A stretch of 48,917 bases of DNA. Origin: an uncultured Mycoplasmatales bacterium (GTDB lineage Bacteria; Bacillota_I; Bacilli_A; UBA3375). A program made the translations under genes and the position numbers. Positions 2,854 to 31,783 of the stretch are shown here, piece by piece. Each line of letters begins with the position of its first letter. The first letter of the stretch is position 1. The notes below the pieces were generated by a model. That model ran no database searches. It saw nothing but the letters and a program-made list of their open reading frames with translations, and was not told where the DNA came from. The stretch is taken from the NCBI GenBank assembly GCA_937936465.1, contig CALDDH010000006.1, positions 1 to 48,917 of the forward strand, given 5' to 3'.

Positions 2854-3370
2854 TAAAGCCAAGTTAAATCTATTTTTAGACAGTAGTAGTAATAATGTAA
2901 CAATTATTTTATTTAATGAATATAAAGTTATTAAAAGCAAGCAATATATTGGTAATAATAATCATACAATTACAATATATAAAGAACTTGAAAAAATGAT
3001 TAAATTTAATGATTTTAATCAAATAAAAAACATTTATTTTTTAAATGGGCCTGGGAGTTATACAGGTATTAGGGTCGGGATGAGTATTGTTAAAACAATA
3101 TGTATGGTTCATAACACAAGTTTATACATTTTAAATAATTTACTTTTCTTTAAAGAGATGTATAAGTCGCCAATTGCAATTGATGCTAGGGGTAAAAAAT
3201 ACTATACATTAATTGATAATGAGTATAGAGTTAAGCCTCTTGGTGAAATAGGTAATAGCCGAGTTGATCCAATTATAAATGTTGATAAGTTTATTGATCA
3301 GAAAATATATAATAAGTTTAATAAAGTTAATTATCAAGATGTCAAAATAGATTATATGAAAGGTATTTAA
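2846..3370 (+). CDS. tsaB: tRNA threonylcarbamoyladenosine protein TsaB
   Basis: TsaB is the non-catalytic partner of TsaD and TsaE in making t6A37 of ANN-decoding tRNAs. The ASKHA-fold signature FLNGPGSYTGIRVGMSIVK is plain near residue 65. I chose the TTG at 2846 (MNNKAKLNLFLDSS), placed about 10 bases after AAAGGA. The frame is open upstream to 2771, but that part overlaps the DnaD-like gene. At 174 residues it is short, lacking much of the usual C-terminal half, as is common in reduced genomes. The TsaE partner is at 8802, and tsaD is not in the window. Confidence 0.9.
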   Translation: MNNKAKLNLFLDSSSNNVTIILFNEYKVIKSKQYIGNNNHTITIYKELEKMIKFNDFNQIKNIYFLNGPGSYTGIRVGMSIVKTICMVHNTSLYILNNLLFFKEMYKSPIAIDARGKKYYTLIDNEYRVKPLGEIGNSRVDPIINVDKFIDQKIYNKFNKVNYQDVKIDYMKGI

Positions 3371-7332: not shown

Positions 7333-7985
7333 TGGATAAAAGTCAAATCATAATTAATAACTTAAACTTTAAATATAATGAACAAATTGTTTTAGATAAT
7401 ATTAATTTACAAATATCTCAAATTGATTACTTAGTTATTACTGGTAAAAATGGAAGTGGTAAAAGTACACTTATTAAGTGTTTACTTGGATTGAATAAAA
7501 TTGATAATCAAATAATCACAATAGATGGTGTTAGTATTAATAAGTTAGATAAAAAAGGGATATTTGGGTATGTGGCTCAAGAAAGTAAATTACTACTAGA
7601 CATTCCAATTACAGCAGTTGAGTATTTAAAGTTATATAAATCAGATATTAAAAAAATTAAAGAAGTTTTGAAAACAATTAATGCTAAGTATTTAGAAAAT
7701 AAACAATTAAATGATATGAGTGGTGGAGAGAGACAAAGAATATTCATTGCAAAAAGTTTATTAAATAATATTAAATTTTTAATATTAGATGAACCAATTA
7801 AGGGACTGGACAAGGCAATGCGTAAATCTTTTCATGACTTAACAAATACTCTTCATAAAAATGGTGTTGGAATAATAATTATCTCACATAACTTAGAAGA
7901 ATTAGATATGCATATAACAAAAGTTTATGATTTAGAAGAAAGGAAACTAAGTGAATTTAATCGAACAAATTGCAAATATTGTTAG
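7332..7985 (+). CDS. Metal-type ABC transporter ATPase
   Basis: ATP-binding subunit of a ZnuC/AdcC/MntB-like importer. Walker A is GKNGSGKST (near residue 38), the Q-loop is GYVAQES, the signature is MSGGERQR, Walker B is FLILDEP, and the H-switch is IIISH. It pairs with the ABC-3 permease gene that starts inside its last 35 bases. No substrate-binding lipoprotein gene is nearby, so the metal (zinc or manganese) cannot be told. Its start overlaps the hslO stop. Confidence 0.88.
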   Translation: MDKSQIIINNLNFKYNEQIVLDNINLQISQIDYLVITGKNGSGKSTLIKCLLGLNKIDNQIITIDGVSINKLDKKGIFGYVAQESKLLLDIPITAVEYLKLYKSDIKKIKEVLKTINAKYLENKQLNDMSGGERQRIFIAKSLLNNIKFLILDEPIKGLDKAMRKSFHDLTNTLHKNGVGIIIISHNLEELDMHITKVYDLEERKLSEFNRTNCKYC

Positions 7986-8793
7986 TTATGATTTTATGCA
8001 AAATGCATTAATAAGTGGGGTTTTTTTAAGTGTGGTTTTAGCTGTTGTTGGTTTACACCTTGTAACGCATAGGTTGACTTTTATTGCCGACACTTTAGGA
8101 CATATAAATATGGGTGGAGTAGCACTAACTTATTTGCTTGCACCAGTGATCGCTCTTAGTTTATTTTCAAGTTTATTGATTATCATGACTTGGAGTATTT
8201 TAGGTGGAGTCTTAATTGAATATTTAAGAAGTAAGTATAAAGACAATAAAGAAGTTGCTATTTTAATTGTCTATGCGATGGCAATTGCATTAACAATGAT
8301 TTTCTTGAATTTATCTACAAGTGCAAATACAGGTTTTTTAAATTTATTGTTTGGAAACATTAATGCTATTTCTAATCAAGAAGTAATTGTAGTAGTCGTA
8401 TTTTCAATTGTTATTTTAATTGTTATGCAACTAATAAATAAAAAATTATTTATTATTGCTTTTGATCAAGAAGTATCAGAGCTTTATGGAGTTAAGTATA
8501 CATTTTACCGTTATCTTTTCATTATTCTAGTTACAATTACAACAACACTTGCAATTAAAATACTTGGAGTTCTTTTAGTGTCTTCAATGATGATTATTCC
8601 AAATTTAAGTGCAATTAATTTATCAAAGAATTTAAAGCAAACTAAATACTTTGCAATTATATTGACAGAAATCTCAATGATATTTGGTATTTTCATGGCT
8701 TACTTTCTTAATCTATCAGCATCAGCTGTAATTGTTATTGTAGCAATTGTAATATATGGATTAACAGTTGTCTATAAAAGTAAATTTTCTTAG
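7951..8793 (+). CDS. ABC-3 family metal permease
   Basis: Membrane subunit of the importer whose ATPase precedes it, 280 residues with about eight hydrophobic segments. Typical ABC-3 features are LVTHRLTFIADTLGHINMGGVALTYLL near the N-terminus, EVAILIVYAMAIAL in the middle, and TTLAIKILGVLLVSSMMIIP in the second half. GTG start, with SD GAAAGG inside the ATPase gene, so the two are translationally coupled. Zinc or manganese is the likely substrate by family. Confidence 0.88.
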   Translation: MNLIEQIANIVSYDFMQNALISGVFLSVVLAVVGLHLVTHRLTFIADTLGHINMGGVALTYLLAPVIALSLFSSLLIIMTWSILGGVLIEYLRSKYKDNKEVAILIVYAMAIALTMIFLNLSTSANTGFLNLLFGNINAISNQEVIVVVVFSIVILIVMQLINKKLFIIAFDQEVSELYGVKYTFYRYLFIILVTITTTLAIKILGVLLVSSMMIIPNLSAINLSKNLKQTKYFAIILTEISMIFGIFMAYFLNLSASAVIVIVAIVIYGLTVVYKSKFS

Positions 8794-8801
8794 GGGGACA
8801 G

Positions 8802-9884
8802 ATGATTATTAGTAATGATCAACAAATGATTAATTTAGGTGAAAAGTTTGCAAGCCTTTTAATGCCAGGTGATACAATATTTTTAAATGGACAATTAGGT
8901 AGTGGCAAAACAACATTAACTAAAGGAATAGCAAAAGGACTTGGCATTAATAAAATTGTAAGTTCACCATCTTTTCAGATTATTAAATTATATGATCAGA
9001 AATTATGCCATGTCGATGGGTACAGGATAGATCAAGAAGATTTAGGAATAGAAGACTATCAAAAAAGTGGATATATTGTATGTATCGAGTGGCCTGGTGC
9101 AATATCAGATTATTTAGAGGATCCAACATATACAGTAACAATTGATTATTTTGGTAAAGAAAGAAAGGTTAAAATAATGAATAAAAATCAAGAAGTAACT
9201 TTTAATCAGATAAATATTGAAGAGAATTTCCGTTTATTATATACTGAAGGTATCGAACAAGGCAATTATCAAGAGGCAATTGAAAAATATGCAAATGATC
9301 CATATACCCAACATTCAACAGGAGTTGAAACAGGTAAAGAAGGTTTTAAAAAGTTTTTTAAAGAGTTTATTAGTAGATCTAAGTCACGAAAGTTTGTTTT
9401 AGAGCCAATCTTCTCTGAAGGGGACCTTGTATTTGCAATGGCTCATCAAAATATAAATGATGGTGAATCTCAGTGGATTACAATGGATATAATCCAAGCT
9501 GATCAATCAGGTAAATTTATTGAACATTGGGATATAATCCAAGCTTATACAAGTAAAGTTCAAAAGCAAGGTAATTTTAAAGTTTTTGATTTAGACAAAA
9601 CACAAACTAATAAACAATTTATTATTGATAATATTTTTAATTTAAATCAATTAATAAATTCAACTAATAATAATTCAGTAAATAAAGGAATTGAAATTAA
9701 TTCAATTTACCGAATTGTTGCTAAAGGGAATTTTGTAGCATGTTTGGTTAAGTCACAATTTTTAGGTAAGGATAGTGCGTCAATGCATTTGTTTAGTATG
9801 AGGGATAATCAAATAATTGGTTATTGGGATGCAATTGAATTAATTCCAACTCCAGAAGTTGCTAGAAACTCTGGTAAGTTTTAA
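8802..9884 (+). CDS. tsaE: TsaE fused to SnoaL-like (NTF2-fold) domains
   Basis: Residues 1-125 are a complete TsaE, the ATPase needed with TsaB/TsaD for tRNA t6A synthesis. Seen are LNGQLGSGKTTLTKGI (Walker A), SSPSFQI, VDGYRI and CIEWPG. A normal TsaE would end about here. The frame continues into a SnoaL-like domain (residues ~136-250: DPYTQHSTGVETGKEGFKKFF, then MDIIQADQSGKFIEHWDIIQAY, as in predicted SnoaL-like aldol-condensation enzymes) and a weaker second copy (~262-350, ending SMRDNQIIGYWDAIELIP). ATG 9177 (Met126) is preceded at 8 bases by AGAAAGG (9162-9168), so the C-terminal part may also be made alone. Last gene of the run. Confidence 0.85.
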   Translation: MIISNDQQMINLGEKFASLLMPGDTIFLNGQLGSGKTTLTKGIAKGLGINKIVSSPSFQIIKLYDQKLCHVDGYRIDQEDLGIEDYQKSGYIVCIEWPGAISDYLEDPTYTVTIDYFGKERKVKIMNKNQEVTFNQINIEENFRLLYTEGIEQGNYQEAIEKYANDPYTQHSTGVETGKEGFKKFFKEFISRSKSRKFVLEPIFSEGDLVFAMAHQNINDGESQWITMDIIQADQSGKFIEHWDIIQAYTSKVQKQGNFKVFDLDKTQTNKQFIIDNIFNLNQLINSTNNNSVNKGIEINSIYRIVAKGNFVACLVKSQFLGKDSASMHLFSMRDNQIIGYWDAIELIPTPEVARNSGKF

Positions 9885-10079: not shown

Positions 10080-10871
10080 ATGAGAAAAGAAAATATTATT
10101 GCAAATTTTTTTAATGAAAATAAAAATAATATAACATATATTGAGGGAGAAGTATTAGACAATTTTATTGATGATAAAGGTAATTATTTATTTAAAGAAT
10201 TCAAAGAATTTATTGATCAAAAAAAAGAATTAAACGATTTTTTTAATAATATTGAAAAATATTATGAATTTATAGATAATGCTTTAGAATGCTTTGAAAT
10301 TTTTGATAGATATTTTAAAAATATAGAATTAAGAATAGAATCTAATGATAGAATTGGAATAAATGAAAATGATGAAAAATTAATTGCATTAAGTAAAAAT
10401 TTATTATATGAAATCAGTCATGCAGAAAGTTTATTTAAAGTTATAACAAATAAATTAGTAAAAAAACCTAAAATAATATTGCAAAAGTCATTGGTTGAAA
10501 ATAAAGATTTAATTGAATCCACAAATGGAAAATATTATAAAAATTTAAAAGATATAGGGTTTTGGAAAATATTTGATTATTATGTCAAAATAAGAAATCA
10601 ATTTAATCATGGTAAAATTAATTTTTTAATAGGAAAAAAAGAATCAGAAAAAACAATTAATAAATTAGATGATTTAGTGAAATTATTAAAATTATATAAT
10701 GTATATTTATATTCTATATCAAATTATATTTCATGTGATATAGGAATTGAGATTTTTGATAAGTTATATCCTTTAGGAGAAATAGGCATTACAAATGAAA
10801 AACAATATTCAAATAATAGTAAATACTATTTAATGTATAATATTTATCTTGCATTAAAAGTAGAAAAATGA
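10080..10871 (+). CDS. Helical protein with HEPN-like RxxxxH motif
   Basis: I do not recognise the family. The 263-residue protein is rich in Asn, Lys and Ile, predicted mostly helical and soluble. Residues 165-180 read FDYYVKIRNQFNHGKI. The R172-N-Q-F-N-H177 is an Rx4H motif of the kind that forms the RNase centre of HEPN domains, which are common in toxin and abortive-infection systems. The gene has a very strong SD and ends in ATGA, overlapping the next gene by four bases, so the two are co-translated. Its composition is more AT-rich than the housekeeping neighbours. HEPN assignment is inference from one motif. Confidence 0.6.
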   Translation: MRKENIIANFFNENKNNITYIEGEVLDNFIDDKGNYLFKEFKEFIDQKKELNDFFNNIEKYYEFIDNALECFEIFDRYFKNIELRIESNDRIGINENDEKLIALSKNLLYEISHAESLFKVITNKLVKKPKIILQKSLVENKDLIESTNGKYYKNLKDIGFWKIFDYYVKIRNQFNHGKINFLIGKKESEKTINKLDDLVKLLKLYNVYLYSISNYISCDIGIEIFDKLYPLGEIGITNEKQYSNNSKYYLMYNIYLALKVEK

Positions 10872-11740
10872 AAAAAATTCTTATAATTATATCTTTTATA
10901 GAGATCTCTTTATTATTTATACTTTTTATTTGTTTTTATAGATATAGTAATCTAATATTTGTTACACATAATGATTTTGAAGCTATATGCTCATTGTTTT
11001 TGCCAATGATTAGTGTTAATACAACTATAGGTGCTATCCTTTTAACTTATTATTTAACAAATAAAAGTAATAAATTAATTAGTGATAAGGCAAATAAAAT
11101 AAATACATTAGAAAGTCTTAGAATTAGCAATACAATGTATGGTGAATCAAAGAATAAATCAAAAACGGAAGATGAATATAAAAATCAATTTGAAAATAGC
11201 ATAATTGCACTACCGTTTACATATGATGAATACGATTTATATAAATGGACAAATGAAAAAGTTAAATTTTTAAACTTATGGAATTCAGTATTTGAAGAAA
11301 ATAAAGGTATGGATTATTTTTTTAATAATGAAAAAGTAAAATATTTAAAATATAATGATCAGTATAAATTTAATACAAAAAATAATCTTAATCAAGACAT
11401 GGAGCAATATCAATATATATCTAAAATTGAAAATTTTATAGTAATAAATAAAAAATTATATATATTTACTAACCAAAGAGAGCAACAATTTAGTGGTGTT
11501 GGAATATATTATAATGAAAATATTGATCAGGGTAGTGTTAATTTAGTTTATGATGATTATATACTAAAAGGTATTAGAAGGAAAAGAAATTCAGGTGGTA
11601 AATGTATACCTCTAGATAGTATAAAAAGAAATACTCATATGGATATCTTTAGGATAAATGATATGATTGGTATAATAAACAAGTGGAAAATAAATGGAAC
11701 AAAAACTTTAAAAAATACCGATGAAATTATTTTTTTATGA
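10868..11740 (+). CDS. Membrane-anchored protein coupled to the HEPN-like gene
   Basis: Family not recognised. Residues ~4-25 and ~38-62 are two membrane segments, followed by a soluble domain of about 225 residues with no motif I can name. Start ATG overlaps the stop of the HEPN-like gene. The frame ends at TGA just after a run of seven T (11730-11736). With one T fewer it would continue without a stop to TAG 11847-11849, adding about 37 residues starting FYDLTPNLHKVIQNINFVVI. So the C-terminus as written may be a mutation, a switchable tract or a sequencing error. The two-gene unit looks like a mobile defence or toxin cassette, but this is inference. Confidence 0.55.
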   Translation: MKKILIIISFIEISLLFILFICFYRYSNLIFVTHNDFEAICSLFLPMISVNTTIGAILLTYYLTNKSNKLISDKANKINTLESLRISNTMYGESKNKSKTEDEYKNQFENSIIALPFTYDEYDLYKWTNEKVKFLNLWNSVFEENKGMDYFFNNEKVKYLKYNDQYKFNTKNNLNQDMEQYQYISKIENFIVINKKLYIFTNQREQQFSGVGIYYNENIDQGSVNLVYDDYILKGIRRKRNSGGKCIPLDSIKRNTHMDIFRINDMIGIINKWKINGTKTLKNTDEIIFL

Positions 11741-27407: not shown

Positions 27408-27460
27408 ATTTATGGGTTTTGATTAATTGTTTTTATAAGGAAAATAAAAGGGGTATTTTC

Positions 27461-30400
27461 ATGAAAAAAAAACTAATAATCATTGTAACAGGAATAATTC
27501 TTATAGGGGTTGTTGTATTCGGATCGTTTAATCTTTATGCACAATATAGTAATAATGGCTATCGTAGTGTAATGTACTATGGTGACTGGTCAGTATGGGG
27601 AGGACAAAGTAACTATTATCCTAAAGACATACCAGCGGATAAAATAACGCATTTAAATTATGCTTTTTTAGATTTTGATCAAAATGGTAATTTAGTATGG
27701 ACAGATCAACAGGCAGCTGTTGGAGCACCAGTTGGTCAAGACGGTGTTGGTTGGGATCAAATAAATTCTGGTTTAATTCCAGCTATTAAAGAATTAAAGT
27801 CAGAAAATCCTAATTTAAAAGTAGGTATTTCACTTGGAGGATGGTCTAAGTCAGGAGACTTTTCAACAGTAGCAGCTGACCCGATCAAGCGAGCTAATTT
27901 AATTGATCAAACAATTCAATTTATTGATTATGTTGGATTTGATTTTGTAGATATCGATTGGGAATATCCAAATAGTGTTAGGCAACCTGATTTGATAGAT
28001 AATAAAAGAGATGAAGGAACGCCAGCAGCAAATCCATCAGATATTGAAAATTTTACAATATTACTTGAAGAATTTAGAGTAGCACTAGATGAGCTAGGTG
28101 AAACTAATGACAAATATTATGAGTTATCTGTTGCAGTACCAGCAAGCGTAACTGCTTTAGAAAATAACTATCAAATTGAACAAGTTTTTGAAATTTGTGA
28201 TTTTGTTAATTTAATGACATATGATTTGAATGGTGCATGGAGCCCAACAACGGGTCACCAAACTAACTTATATAGTAGTTCACAAGATCCAATGGGTGAT
28301 GAGGGATATTCAATTGATAAAGTTGTTCAATATTTAATTAATGACAAAGGTGTAGATAGTTCCAAAATTGTTATAGGATCAGCTTTTTATACAAGAGGTT
28401 GGCAAGGTGTTGAATCAGAAAACAATGGATTATATTCAAACGTAATTAAAACAGGTGAAGATGCAGATGGTACACCTAGTGCTGGAGCAGTTAATGAAGC
28501 ACCATTAGTCTCAGGTGATGGAGGAAGGTTAGGTGGTGTTTGGTCTTATCGTAATTTAGATCAATTAAAAGCTAAATATCCAGACTTAGAAGAATATTGG
28601 GATGATGAAGCAAAGGCACCATATTTATATAGTGAAGAAGATGGTCTTTTCTTTACATATGATAATCCAAGGTCAGTAACTGAAAAAAGTAATTATGTTA
28701 AAGAAAATAATTTAGGTGGAATTATATCATGGCAATCTTCAAATGATAGTCCAACCGATTCATCTAAAAGAGATGAATTAACAAATGTAATTTATGATAA
28801 TTTAATAGTAGGACAAAATTATGAAAATAAAACTATTTATCCAGAAAATAATATTGATGTTGAAATAAAGCCAATTGATAATGATTATCAGTTTGGATAT
28901 GAAATTACAGTTGATAACCTTGATCAATTAACAGAAAGCAATCAAGTTTTAAAAGATGTAGAATTAAAGTCTAAGTCACTTAGTTTACCAAAATATTATA
29001 TTAAAACAAGTGATACAGTAATTGGTACAGATTATAGAGGTGGAATATTTAAAGATGAAGGATCAGGGTTATATTCTTTTGATTTGGCGGGTGTTTATGA
29101 TGCTAGGTTTTTAAAACCACAAGAATCATACACATTTAATGTTTATACAAAAGATCAAGTTAATGTAAGTAACATTGAAAGCATATCTGTATCTACAAGG
29201 TCTTCATCAACTGGACCAGAAATTACCAATCAAGAAATTTATTCTTCTAATCTTGATAATTCTCCAACTATTAATGGAATAAATAATTTAACAATATCTC
29301 AGTTTAGTGAATTTGATTCAATGGATGGTGTAAGTGCATTAGATATAGAAGATGGTGATTTAACAAATCAAATTACAATTAATGGAGAAGTTAATACCGA
29401 AGTTATTGGTCAATATAATCTTAACTATTCAGTAGTTGATCAAAGTGGTAATCAAACAGAGGAAAGTAGGACAGTAGATGTCATTGAAAATGGCATTCCT
29501 AATTTCATTGGTTTGGATGCTCAAAGTATTGTTGAAGGTACTGAATTTGATCCAATGAAAGGTGTAACAGCTGTTGATATAGAAGATGGTGATATAACTA
29601 ATAACATTGAAGTTATCGGTCAAGTTGATAGTGACAAATCAGGTCAATATATATTAACTTATCAGGTTGAAGATTCTGATCAAAATGTTATAACTCAGGA
29701 CCGAGTTATTAGTGTAGAAGAAAATCAACCACCAGTTATTGTTGGGGCTGAAAATATATCTATTAAAAAAGATTCAAATTTTGATCCAATGAAAGGTGTA
29801 ACAGCTGATGATGATTTTGATGGTGATATAACTGATCAGATTCAAGTGATTGGAGAAGTTAATACAGGTGTTGAAGCAACATATGAACTATATTATAAAA
29901 TAACAGATAGTAATCAAGTTGAAACACTGATTATGCGTAAAGTTATCGTTGTATCTGATCAAAATAGTGATGTAACTGAAATGGTTAATCCAGAAGATAA
30001 AGTCCTAATTGGTTATTGGCATAACTGGGTTGGTGGAGATGGGTATAAAGGTGGAACAGCACAGGAGATGAAACTAACAGATGTTAATGATTATTATAAC
30101 GTTATTGCGGTTTCATTTATGAAGGTATATGATAATCAAGAATCAAGAATACCAACTTTTATCCCAGATCCAACAATATATCCAGATGAACAAGACTTTA
30201 TTGATGATATAGCAGAATTAAATTCACAAGGGACGAGTGTTATTTTATCATTAGGTGGTGCAGATGCTCATATTGAATTACAAGAAGGAGATTATATTGC
30301 ATTAGCTGATGAAATAATTCGTTTAACAGATAAATATGGATTTGATGGTATAGATATTGATTTAGAGCAAAGTGCAATTACTGCTGGGGATAATCAAACT

Positions 30401-31783
30401 GAAATAGTAAAAGCTTTGAAATTAGTTAAAGAGCACTACTTAGCTCAAGGAGAAAACTTTTTAATTGGAATGGCTCCAGAATTCCCATATTTAACTAAAC
30501 AAAATAATAAGTATCAATCTTATATTGAAGGATTAGATGGATATTATGATTGGATTGCACCACAATATTATAATCAAGCAGGTGATGGTGTTAGTGTTGG
30601 TTCTGAATGGATTGCCCAAAATAATGATCAAAGAAAAGAAGATTTTCTATATTATTTAACTAAGTCTATTTTGGAAGGAACAAATGGATATTTAGATTTA
30701 AATATTCCAAGTGATAAATTTGTAATAGGGTTGCCTTCTAATATTGATGCTGCAGCAAATGGTTATGTGCAAGACCCAGAAGATGTTAAAAATGCATATA
30801 AAAGATTAAAAGATGATGGTTATGATATCAAAGGGTTAATGACTTGGTCAGTTAATTGGGATCAAGGAACTAATTCATCAGATCAAAATTATAATGATCA
30901 GTTTGCAAATACATATGGACCATGGATTGAATCAATCGAAAATGATCAATCCAATAATCAAGCACCTAAATTAATCGGTTTAAAGGACCAAACAATTGAA
31001 GTGGGAGATACTTTTGATCCACTAGAAGGTATTTATGCACAAGATGATTATGATGGAGATATAACTGATGAAATTGAAATAACCGGTAGTGTAGATATTA
31101 ATAAAGCAGGTGTTTATGAATTAATATATCAAGTTGCAGACAAAGAGGGAATGAAAACTGAAAAAATTATTAAGATTACAGTTAAGGAAACAGTTAATAA
31201 TAATGATCCATACTTTATAGGAGTTGATGATAAATCTATTAATCAAGGTGATGATTTTGATTTATCAGCAGGAGTAAAAGCTTTTGATCAAGAAGATGGA
31301 GAAATTTCAAATAAGATTATTATAAAAGGTACAATTGATTCAAATGTTGCTGGAAAATATAATATTGAATATAGTGTTACAGATAACAATATGTCAACAA
31401 TAAAAGTTAATCGACAAATTACAGTTAAAAGTGATTCATCTGAAATTGATCCTGATGCAATACCTGATTATAATCCACAATATCACACACAAACTGGATA
31501 TACAAATGGTAGTATTGTAAAGTATAAAGGTAAAATTTGGAAACAAACAAGTGGTCAAATATCATGGTGGGGAGAACCGGGTAAACATGATGCTTGGACA
31601 CAAATTGCAGTTTATGATTATGATCAACCGATAGATGAGTGGGATGCAAATTATCAAACAAATAATGGTTACTACCCACAAGAAAAAGTAATTCACAATG
31701 GTAAAACTTGGATTCAAAATACTGAAAGTATTCTTTGGTGGGGAGAGCCAGGTGAACATAATGCATGGGTTGAAGTAAAATAA
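27461..31783 (+). CDS. Secreted chitinase with two GH18 domains
   Basis: 1440-residue exported glycosidase that should cut chitin. Order: signal peptide or anchor (1-28); GH18 domain 1 (~34-450) with D161-FV-D164-I-D166-W-E168 and SLGGWS; a linker domain; three Ig-like DUF5011/Cry22-type repeats (~602-835); GH18 domain 2 (~846-1140) with DGIDIDLE at 962-969 and SLGGAD; two more Ig-like repeats (~1167-1325); two CBM5/12-type chitin-binding modules (~1340-1388 and 1393-1440), each with a WWGEPG motif. Both GH18 centres keep DxxDxDxE, so both look active; one may be exo and the other endo. Start ATG 27461 has SD AAAGGGG. It is a single-gene unit. Confidence 0.93.
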   Translation: MKKKLIIIVTGIILIGVVVFGSFNLYAQYSNNGYRSVMYYGDWSVWGGQSNYYPKDIPADKITHLNYAFLDFDQNGNLVWTDQQAAVGAPVGQDGVGWDQINSGLIPAIKELKSENPNLKVGISLGGWSKSGDFSTVAADPIKRANLIDQTIQFIDYVGFDFVDIDWEYPNSVRQPDLIDNKRDEGTPAANPSDIENFTILLEEFRVALDELGETNDKYYELSVAVPASVTALENNYQIEQVFEICDFVNLMTYDLNGAWSPTTGHQTNLYSSSQDPMGDEGYSIDKVVQYLINDKGVDSSKIVIGSAFYTRGWQGVESENNGLYSNVIKTGEDADGTPSAGAVNEAPLVSGDGGRLGGVWSYRNLDQLKAKYPDLEEYWDDEAKAPYLYSEEDGLFFTYDNPRSVTEKSNYVKENNLGGIISWQSSNDSPTDSSKRDELTNVIYDNLIVGQNYENKTIYPENNIDVEIKPIDNDYQFGYEITVDNLDQLTESNQVLKDVELKSKSLSLPKYYIKTSDTVIGTDYRGGIFKDEGSGLYSFDLAGVYDARFLKPQESYTFNVYTKDQVNVSNIESISVSTRSSSTGPEITNQEIYSSNLDNSPTINGINNLTISQFSEFDSMDGVSALDIEDGDLTNQITINGEVNTEVIGQYNLNYSVVDQSGNQTEESRTVDVIENGIPNFIGLDAQSIVEGTEFDPMKGVTAVDIEDGDITNNIEVIGQVDSDKSGQYILTYQVEDSDQNVITQDRVISVEENQPPVIVGAENISIKKDSNFDPMKGVTADDDFDGDITDQIQVIGEVNTGVEATYELYYKITDSNQVETLIMRKVIVVSDQNSDVTEMVNPEDKVLIGYWHNWVGGDGYKGGTAQEMKLTDVNDYYNVIAVSFMKVYDNQESRIPTFIPDPTIYPDEQDFIDDIAELNSQGTSVILSLGGADAHIELQEGDYIALADEIIRLTDKYGFDGIDIDLEQSAITAGDNQTEIVKALKLVKEHYLAQGENFLIGMAPEFPYLTKQNNKYQSYIEGLDGYYDWIAPQYYNQAGDGVSVGSEWIAQNNDQRKEDFLYYLTKSILEGTNGYLDLNIPSDKFVIGLPSNIDAAANGYVQDPEDVKNAYKRLKDDGYDIKGLMTWSVNWDQGTNSSDQNYNDQFANTYGPWIESIENDQSNNQAPKLIGLKDQTIEVGDTFDPLEGIYAQDDYDGDITDEIEITGSVDINKAGVYELIYQVADKEGMKTEKIIKITVKETVNNNDPYFIGVDDKSINQGDDFDLSAGVKAFDQEDGEISNKIIIKGTIDSNVAGKYNIEYSVTDNNMSTIKVNRQITVKSDSSEIDPDAIPDYNPQYHTQTGYTNGSIVKYKGKIWKQTSGQISWWGEPGKHDAWTQIAVYDYDQPIDEWDANYQTNNGYYPQEKVIHNGKTWIQNTESILWWGEPGEHNAWVEVK

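Follow-up and report, generated by a model that had tools for sequence, protein, structure and literature searches.

An uncultured Mycoplasmatales bacterium carries one uninterrupted open reading frame of 360 amino acids—positions 8802–9884 on the plus strand of the window, the 48,917-nucleotide stretch of contig CALDDH010000006.1 that was analysed here—in which TsaE is followed in frame by a pair of SnoaL-like domains. Both modules are homologous to other proteins along their length, the frame holds the only TsaE found in the genome, and in relatives the two genes are separate. Judged from sequence, this is a genuine-looking in-frame join of two neighbouring genes, lineage-specific in our sample. 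We consider it probable that the fusion is adventitious, joining the single-copy tsaE to the next gene so that the SnoaL-like part travels as a passenger, with no functional coupling needed.

A TsaE frame that continues into a tandem SnoaL-like protein

An earlier note on this DNA had described TsaE running in frame into one clear and one weaker SnoaL-like domain, a description borne out by the open frame, Pfam, hhalign and AF2. The parts of the locus and its immediate surroundings are as follows.

2957–3232, plus strand: TsaB, apart from tsaE (PF00814 match in Pfam)
7951–8793, plus strand: ZnuB-like ABC permease, separated from tsaE by 8 nt and likely in its operon (from the ORF listing; named by reading the sequence)
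8792–8797, plus strand: AGGGGG ribosome-binding site of the fused gene (duplex energy −9.3 kcal/mol)
8802–9884, plus strand: fused tsaE–SnoaL reading frame, 360 aa (open ORF; codon-usage signal unbroken over the junction)
8811–9194, plus strand: TsaE domain, residues 4–131, without a recognisable form of the C-terminal helix of other TsaE proteins (Pfam, NCBIfam, class profile)
9222–9554, plus strand: SnoaL-like domain 1, residues 141–251, retaining YTQHSTGV and EHWDIIQ (Pfam, family alignment, hhalign)
9588–9863, plus strand: SnoaL-like domain 2, residues 263–354, shortened, QH motif lost and EHWD changed to GYWD (alignment, AF2, hhalign)

Neighbouring genes in the window are mostly separated by −29 to +22 nt. 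Right after the fusion, at 10080–11740, lie adjacent ORFs of 263 aa (no NCBIfam match) and 290 aa (no Pfam match). Further along, a 1454-aa secreted protein (27419–31783) reads as two chitinase (GH18-type) modules with repeats and is followed by PTS genes, and the contig edge (23–337) holds what reads as the end of an IS-type transposase.

The N-terminal half passed the curated cut-offs for TsaE (YjeE/YdiB), with matches to PF02367 over residues 4–116 (E 5.5e-31; 107.6 bits, cut-off 26.6) and to the NCBIfam equivalog TIGR00150 over residues 4–126 (E 4.3e-28; 97.8 bits, cut-off 60.1). A profile made from 29 TsaE sequences of the same class matched residues 2–131 (129 bits), and the motifs of the family are kept: Walker A (GQLGSGKTT, residues 30–38), HxDxYR (as HVDGYR) and IEW, within CIEWPG (residues 94–99). 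This half is intact up to and including its last strand, and its earlier description as a complete TsaE holds that far but not for the C-terminal helix: the conserved tail that follows the last strand (KYxxLxxxL) was not detectable by PSSM (score 0.5, shuffle p = 0.31; controls 8–27), nor did the scan detect a tail concealed in residues 126–142. The curated TsaE models do not extend to the tail helix, which is not taken to define the family, so the filing of the protein as TsaE stands, although it differs from other members in its C-terminal fusion and its want of a recognisable helix. In this genome (G000), of which about 13% is missing, the fused copy is the single TsaE; TsaD, TsaB and two Sua5-family proteins are also encoded, and t6A synthesis is therefore expected.

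The SnoaL pair is likewise present, but is no loose add-on: from the alignment, the C-terminal part from Met126 is the whole protein of a standalone tandem-SnoaL family of about 250 aa. Residues 141–360 match standalone relatives over their full length at 33–41% identity. These NTF2-superfamily proteins, annotated ‘nuclear transport factor 2 family protein’, are 245–260 aa long, start with MSKKxENAKNLYL about 10 residues inside the equivalent of Met126 and mostly end in NSGKF; the window’s SnoaL half shares their two-domain layout and GKF C terminus. They are free-standing in frames of their own, whereas the window copy is fused, with a shortened second domain that lacks the QH motif. All 25 distinct tandem-SnoaL relatives recovered are separate genes in open frames of 247–396 aa, none with TsaE.

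Within the pair, SnoaL_2 (Pfam) matched residues 147–241 at 4.6e-6, barely above cut-off, and domain 2 alone (residues 263–360) gave no convincing Pfam match. Domain 2 does align with its counterpart in the standalone relatives, their second SnoaL domain, and is about 25–30 residues shorter. Across the family, domain 1 matches domain 2 (hhalign probability 99.4%, E 1.4e-21); by sequence, the two NTF2-like domains are internal duplicates, of which the window’s second is degenerate. The AF2 models came from shallow alignments (mean pLDDT 51 and 58) and were used solely for the NTF2 fold of domain 2, most of which has a pLDDT of about 78–87 and a helix plus four-strand NTF2 layout. Foldseek matched the model to SnoaL-like and ketosteroid-isomerase structures, including lasalocid epoxide hydrolase, LasB (PDB 3rga), a tandem SnoaL-like protein. 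The LasB match spans the entire SnoaL part (E 3.6e-4), but with a TM-score of only about 0.3–0.36 for a low-confidence window model, and the window holds no biosynthetic cluster.

Rarity, and other fusions of TsaE

The earlier note knew of no such fusion, and no second one turned up in the genomes searched. TsaE was present in 57 of 60 genomes in a first survey and in 380 of 392 in a second, in which frame lengths came from the best ~155 of the 380 matches; no further TsaE–SnoaL fusion occurred among these listed matches. From the SnoaL side, a survey of 395 genomes of the class, followed by surveys of two families (43 and 245 genomes; the sets overlap in part), left the window as the sole case joined to TsaE. 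GTDB species contigs gave matches to the SnoaL part alone, none covering TsaE, and viral contigs searched for the fusion yielded no relative. In the only other genome of the window’s family the contig stops inside tsaE, after 85 residues, and the SnoaL part found no match. In relatives, tsaE and the SnoaL gene are separate and not adjacent. The earlier note had held that a consistent separation in relatives would count against the fusion; they are indeed all separate, but that finding marks the fusion as lineage-specific without refuting it.

Long TsaE frames among the matches listed were those of the window, L072 (a 222-aa frame open to the contig end), G187 (347 aa), G311 (358 aa) and, in the first survey, G026 (343 aa). 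G187 and G311, two genomes of one genus in the window’s class, carry in-frame TsaE–TsaB fusions (loci L070 and L071, minus strand). G026 has the same layout (L073:1311-2342). Translated with table 11, its frame shows a stop codon where IEW should stand, and this genome therefore likely reads TGA as Trp; L073 is probably a third TsaE–TsaB fusion. In these fusions, as in the window's, the TsaE frame runs on into a downstream protein, but their partner is a t6A subunit and, in L070 and L071, TsaE retains the tail helix that the window’s lacks. Such fusions in the window's class show that TsaE tolerates being joined at its C terminus to the product of a neighbouring gene.

The junction and a possible internal start

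Between 9081 and 9350, a stretch that takes in the linker, codon usage supports the frame of the ORF at each 60-nt step; throughout the junction (9126–9230) the signal stays in this frame, and stops are abundant in the other two. TsaE homology passes Met126 to reach residue 131 and SnoaL homology begins at residue 141. A frameshift within the homologous stretch was rejected, as one frame holds all the codon signal and the TsaE homology is in frame to residue 131. Neither half looks dead or foreign, because their terminal branches are similar (1.76 for the TsaE half, 1.94 for the SnoaL half) and GC3 is alike on either side of the junction (0.160 and 0.165). Decay of the SnoaL half as a passenger was unsupported, the TsaE branch being equally long, though domain 2 has lost motifs.

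Two features bear on whether the gene might yield a second product.

9162–9168, plus strand: AGAAAGG, candidate internal ribosome-binding site (−4.4 kcal/mol; 18th among the window's 179 internal ATGs)
9177–9179, plus strand: ATG of Met126, candidate internal start, product of 235 aa (sequence, alignment with relatives)

The earlier note had credited Met126 with a well-placed Shine–Dalgarno sequence of its own and suggested that one gene may give two proteins, the full fusion and a free SnoaL-like protein initiated at Met126. The motif is there, its AAAGG core 8 nt ahead of the ATG, and its anti-SD duplex falls in about the best tenth of the window’s internal ATGs; a product from Met126 would be full length, because the standalone relatives begin about 10 residues beyond that Met. 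Against this, the site is mediocre—usable and unremarkable—with a duplex weaker than those of 21 of the 28 gene starts (that of tsaE is −9.3 kcal/mol). Moreover, its bases encode Glu-Arg-Lys in a TsaE strand, and relatives conserve the Arg, so the resemblance may be a by-product of coding, and Met126 itself lies inside the TsaE homology. Two products may be made, but we think this unlikely on the sequence evidence.

A different account is that only this assembly or this strain lacks the stop (or frame) that separates two ordinary genes. This would fit the separate genes of all relatives. In addition, 12 codons among residues 116–142 are a single substitution away from a stop, and TAA stands directly before the ATG at 9177 in both other frames (at 9170 and 9175), such that a single-base length change there would give two ordinary genes. 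The coding signal and both homologies nevertheless share one frame, and the assembly is not visibly error-prone, because the window's long conserved ORFs (901, 875, 756 and 749 aa) are unbroken. We regard a missing stop as distinctly improbable, and the accidental fusion that the earlier note had offered as one option as the best fit.

Neighbours of the SnoaL relatives and the meaning of the fusion

The surroundings of the standalone relatives, the nearest of which have ergothioneine-type genes and not t6A genes beside them, give a hint of what the SnoaL half may once have done. In its three closest in-class relatives (G119, G187 and G311) the SnoaL gene lies in a run with a permease–substrate-binding fusion of about 505 aa and an ATPase; this is the EgtU layout, and we read the run as an EgtU-like transporter from layout. 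A SnoaL2-family gene, spd_1644, also occurs in the pneumococcal ergothioneine-uptake (egtU) operon (PMC9732360), a likeness of gene position. On one Flavobacteriaceae contig (L044), a tandem SnoaL gene ends 6 nt before egtB (TIGR03440, 511.8 bits, cut-off 360), followed by egtD (286.1 bits, slightly below its cut-off of 290.9). The loci are these.

L062:5572-8589, L063:5992-9694 and L064:5904-9582: tandem SnoaL with EgtU-like transporter genes, window’s class
L044:713-3609: tandem SnoaL with egtB and egtD, Flavobacteriaceae

Tandem SnoaL proteins beside such genes are candidate ergothioneine-related enzymes or binding proteins. More distant tandem SnoaL genes (L066:3102-6437, L067:1845-5165 and L068:5757-9536) keep company with genes for an Rrf2/HypR-type regulator and for PPOX-like, macrodomain ADP-ribose hydrolase and sirtuin-like proteins. 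Given such neighbourhoods among its relatives, a redox- or ergothioneine-linked protein is the probable ancestor of the SnoaL half. No egtU- or egtB/egtD-type genes adjoin the fusion, and a search of the window’s genome for an EgtU-like transporter found none; the one match, at 25%, was to an ABC permease of a different type, which we read as a thiamine-precursor-type transporter.

These observations lend no support to the idea, also raised in the earlier note, that the fusion links t6A synthesis to a small-molecule enzyme. A selected bifunctional protein tying t6A modification to a SnoaL reaction, for instance to redox or thiol status, would accord with the expected essentiality of the fused gene, with main motifs kept in both halves and with the redox and ergothioneine neighbourhoods of SnoaL relatives. 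Yet the fusion was seen in no other genome searched, the two genes are not neighbours in relatives, the QH motif is gone from domain 2, and absence of the usual SnoaL partner, the EgtU-like transporter, argues against a t6A-linked role; we judge such a protein very unlikely. Also very unlikely, in our judgement, is a truly bifunctional protein retained across a lineage outside the sample, its SnoaL-type pair, catalytic or sensory, standing in for the TsaE tail and tuning t6A synthesis to a small molecule.

The adventitious fusion that we favour would have arisen where a single-copy tsaE, downstream of zinc-transporter-like genes in a densely arranged operon, came to run on in frame into the following gene; that gene would have encoded a complete, standalone two-domain SnoaL-like protein. 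We infer that loss of the 3′ end of tsaE (stop and tail helix), or of the stop alone, made the join. With its N-terminal ATPase domain the polypeptide would do the work of TsaE alongside TsaD and TsaB, and the SnoaL pair would be a passenger keeping its own chemistry, no coupling between the halves being necessary. The fusion was seen in one genome, and loss of the tail helix could impair TsaE.

The fusion is thus best seen as a rare joining of two working proteins, probably accidental, and as no new system; the pairing of TsaE with SnoaL should not be taken as a functional link. Possibly worth more is the recurrence, in different phyla, of tandem SnoaL proteins beside genes for ergothioneine uptake or synthesis. 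If the fusion is real in cells, TsaE must work while carrying a C-terminal passenger of 230 residues and lacking the tail helix it usually has, which would limit the possible roles of that tail in the TsaD–TsaB–TsaE cycle.
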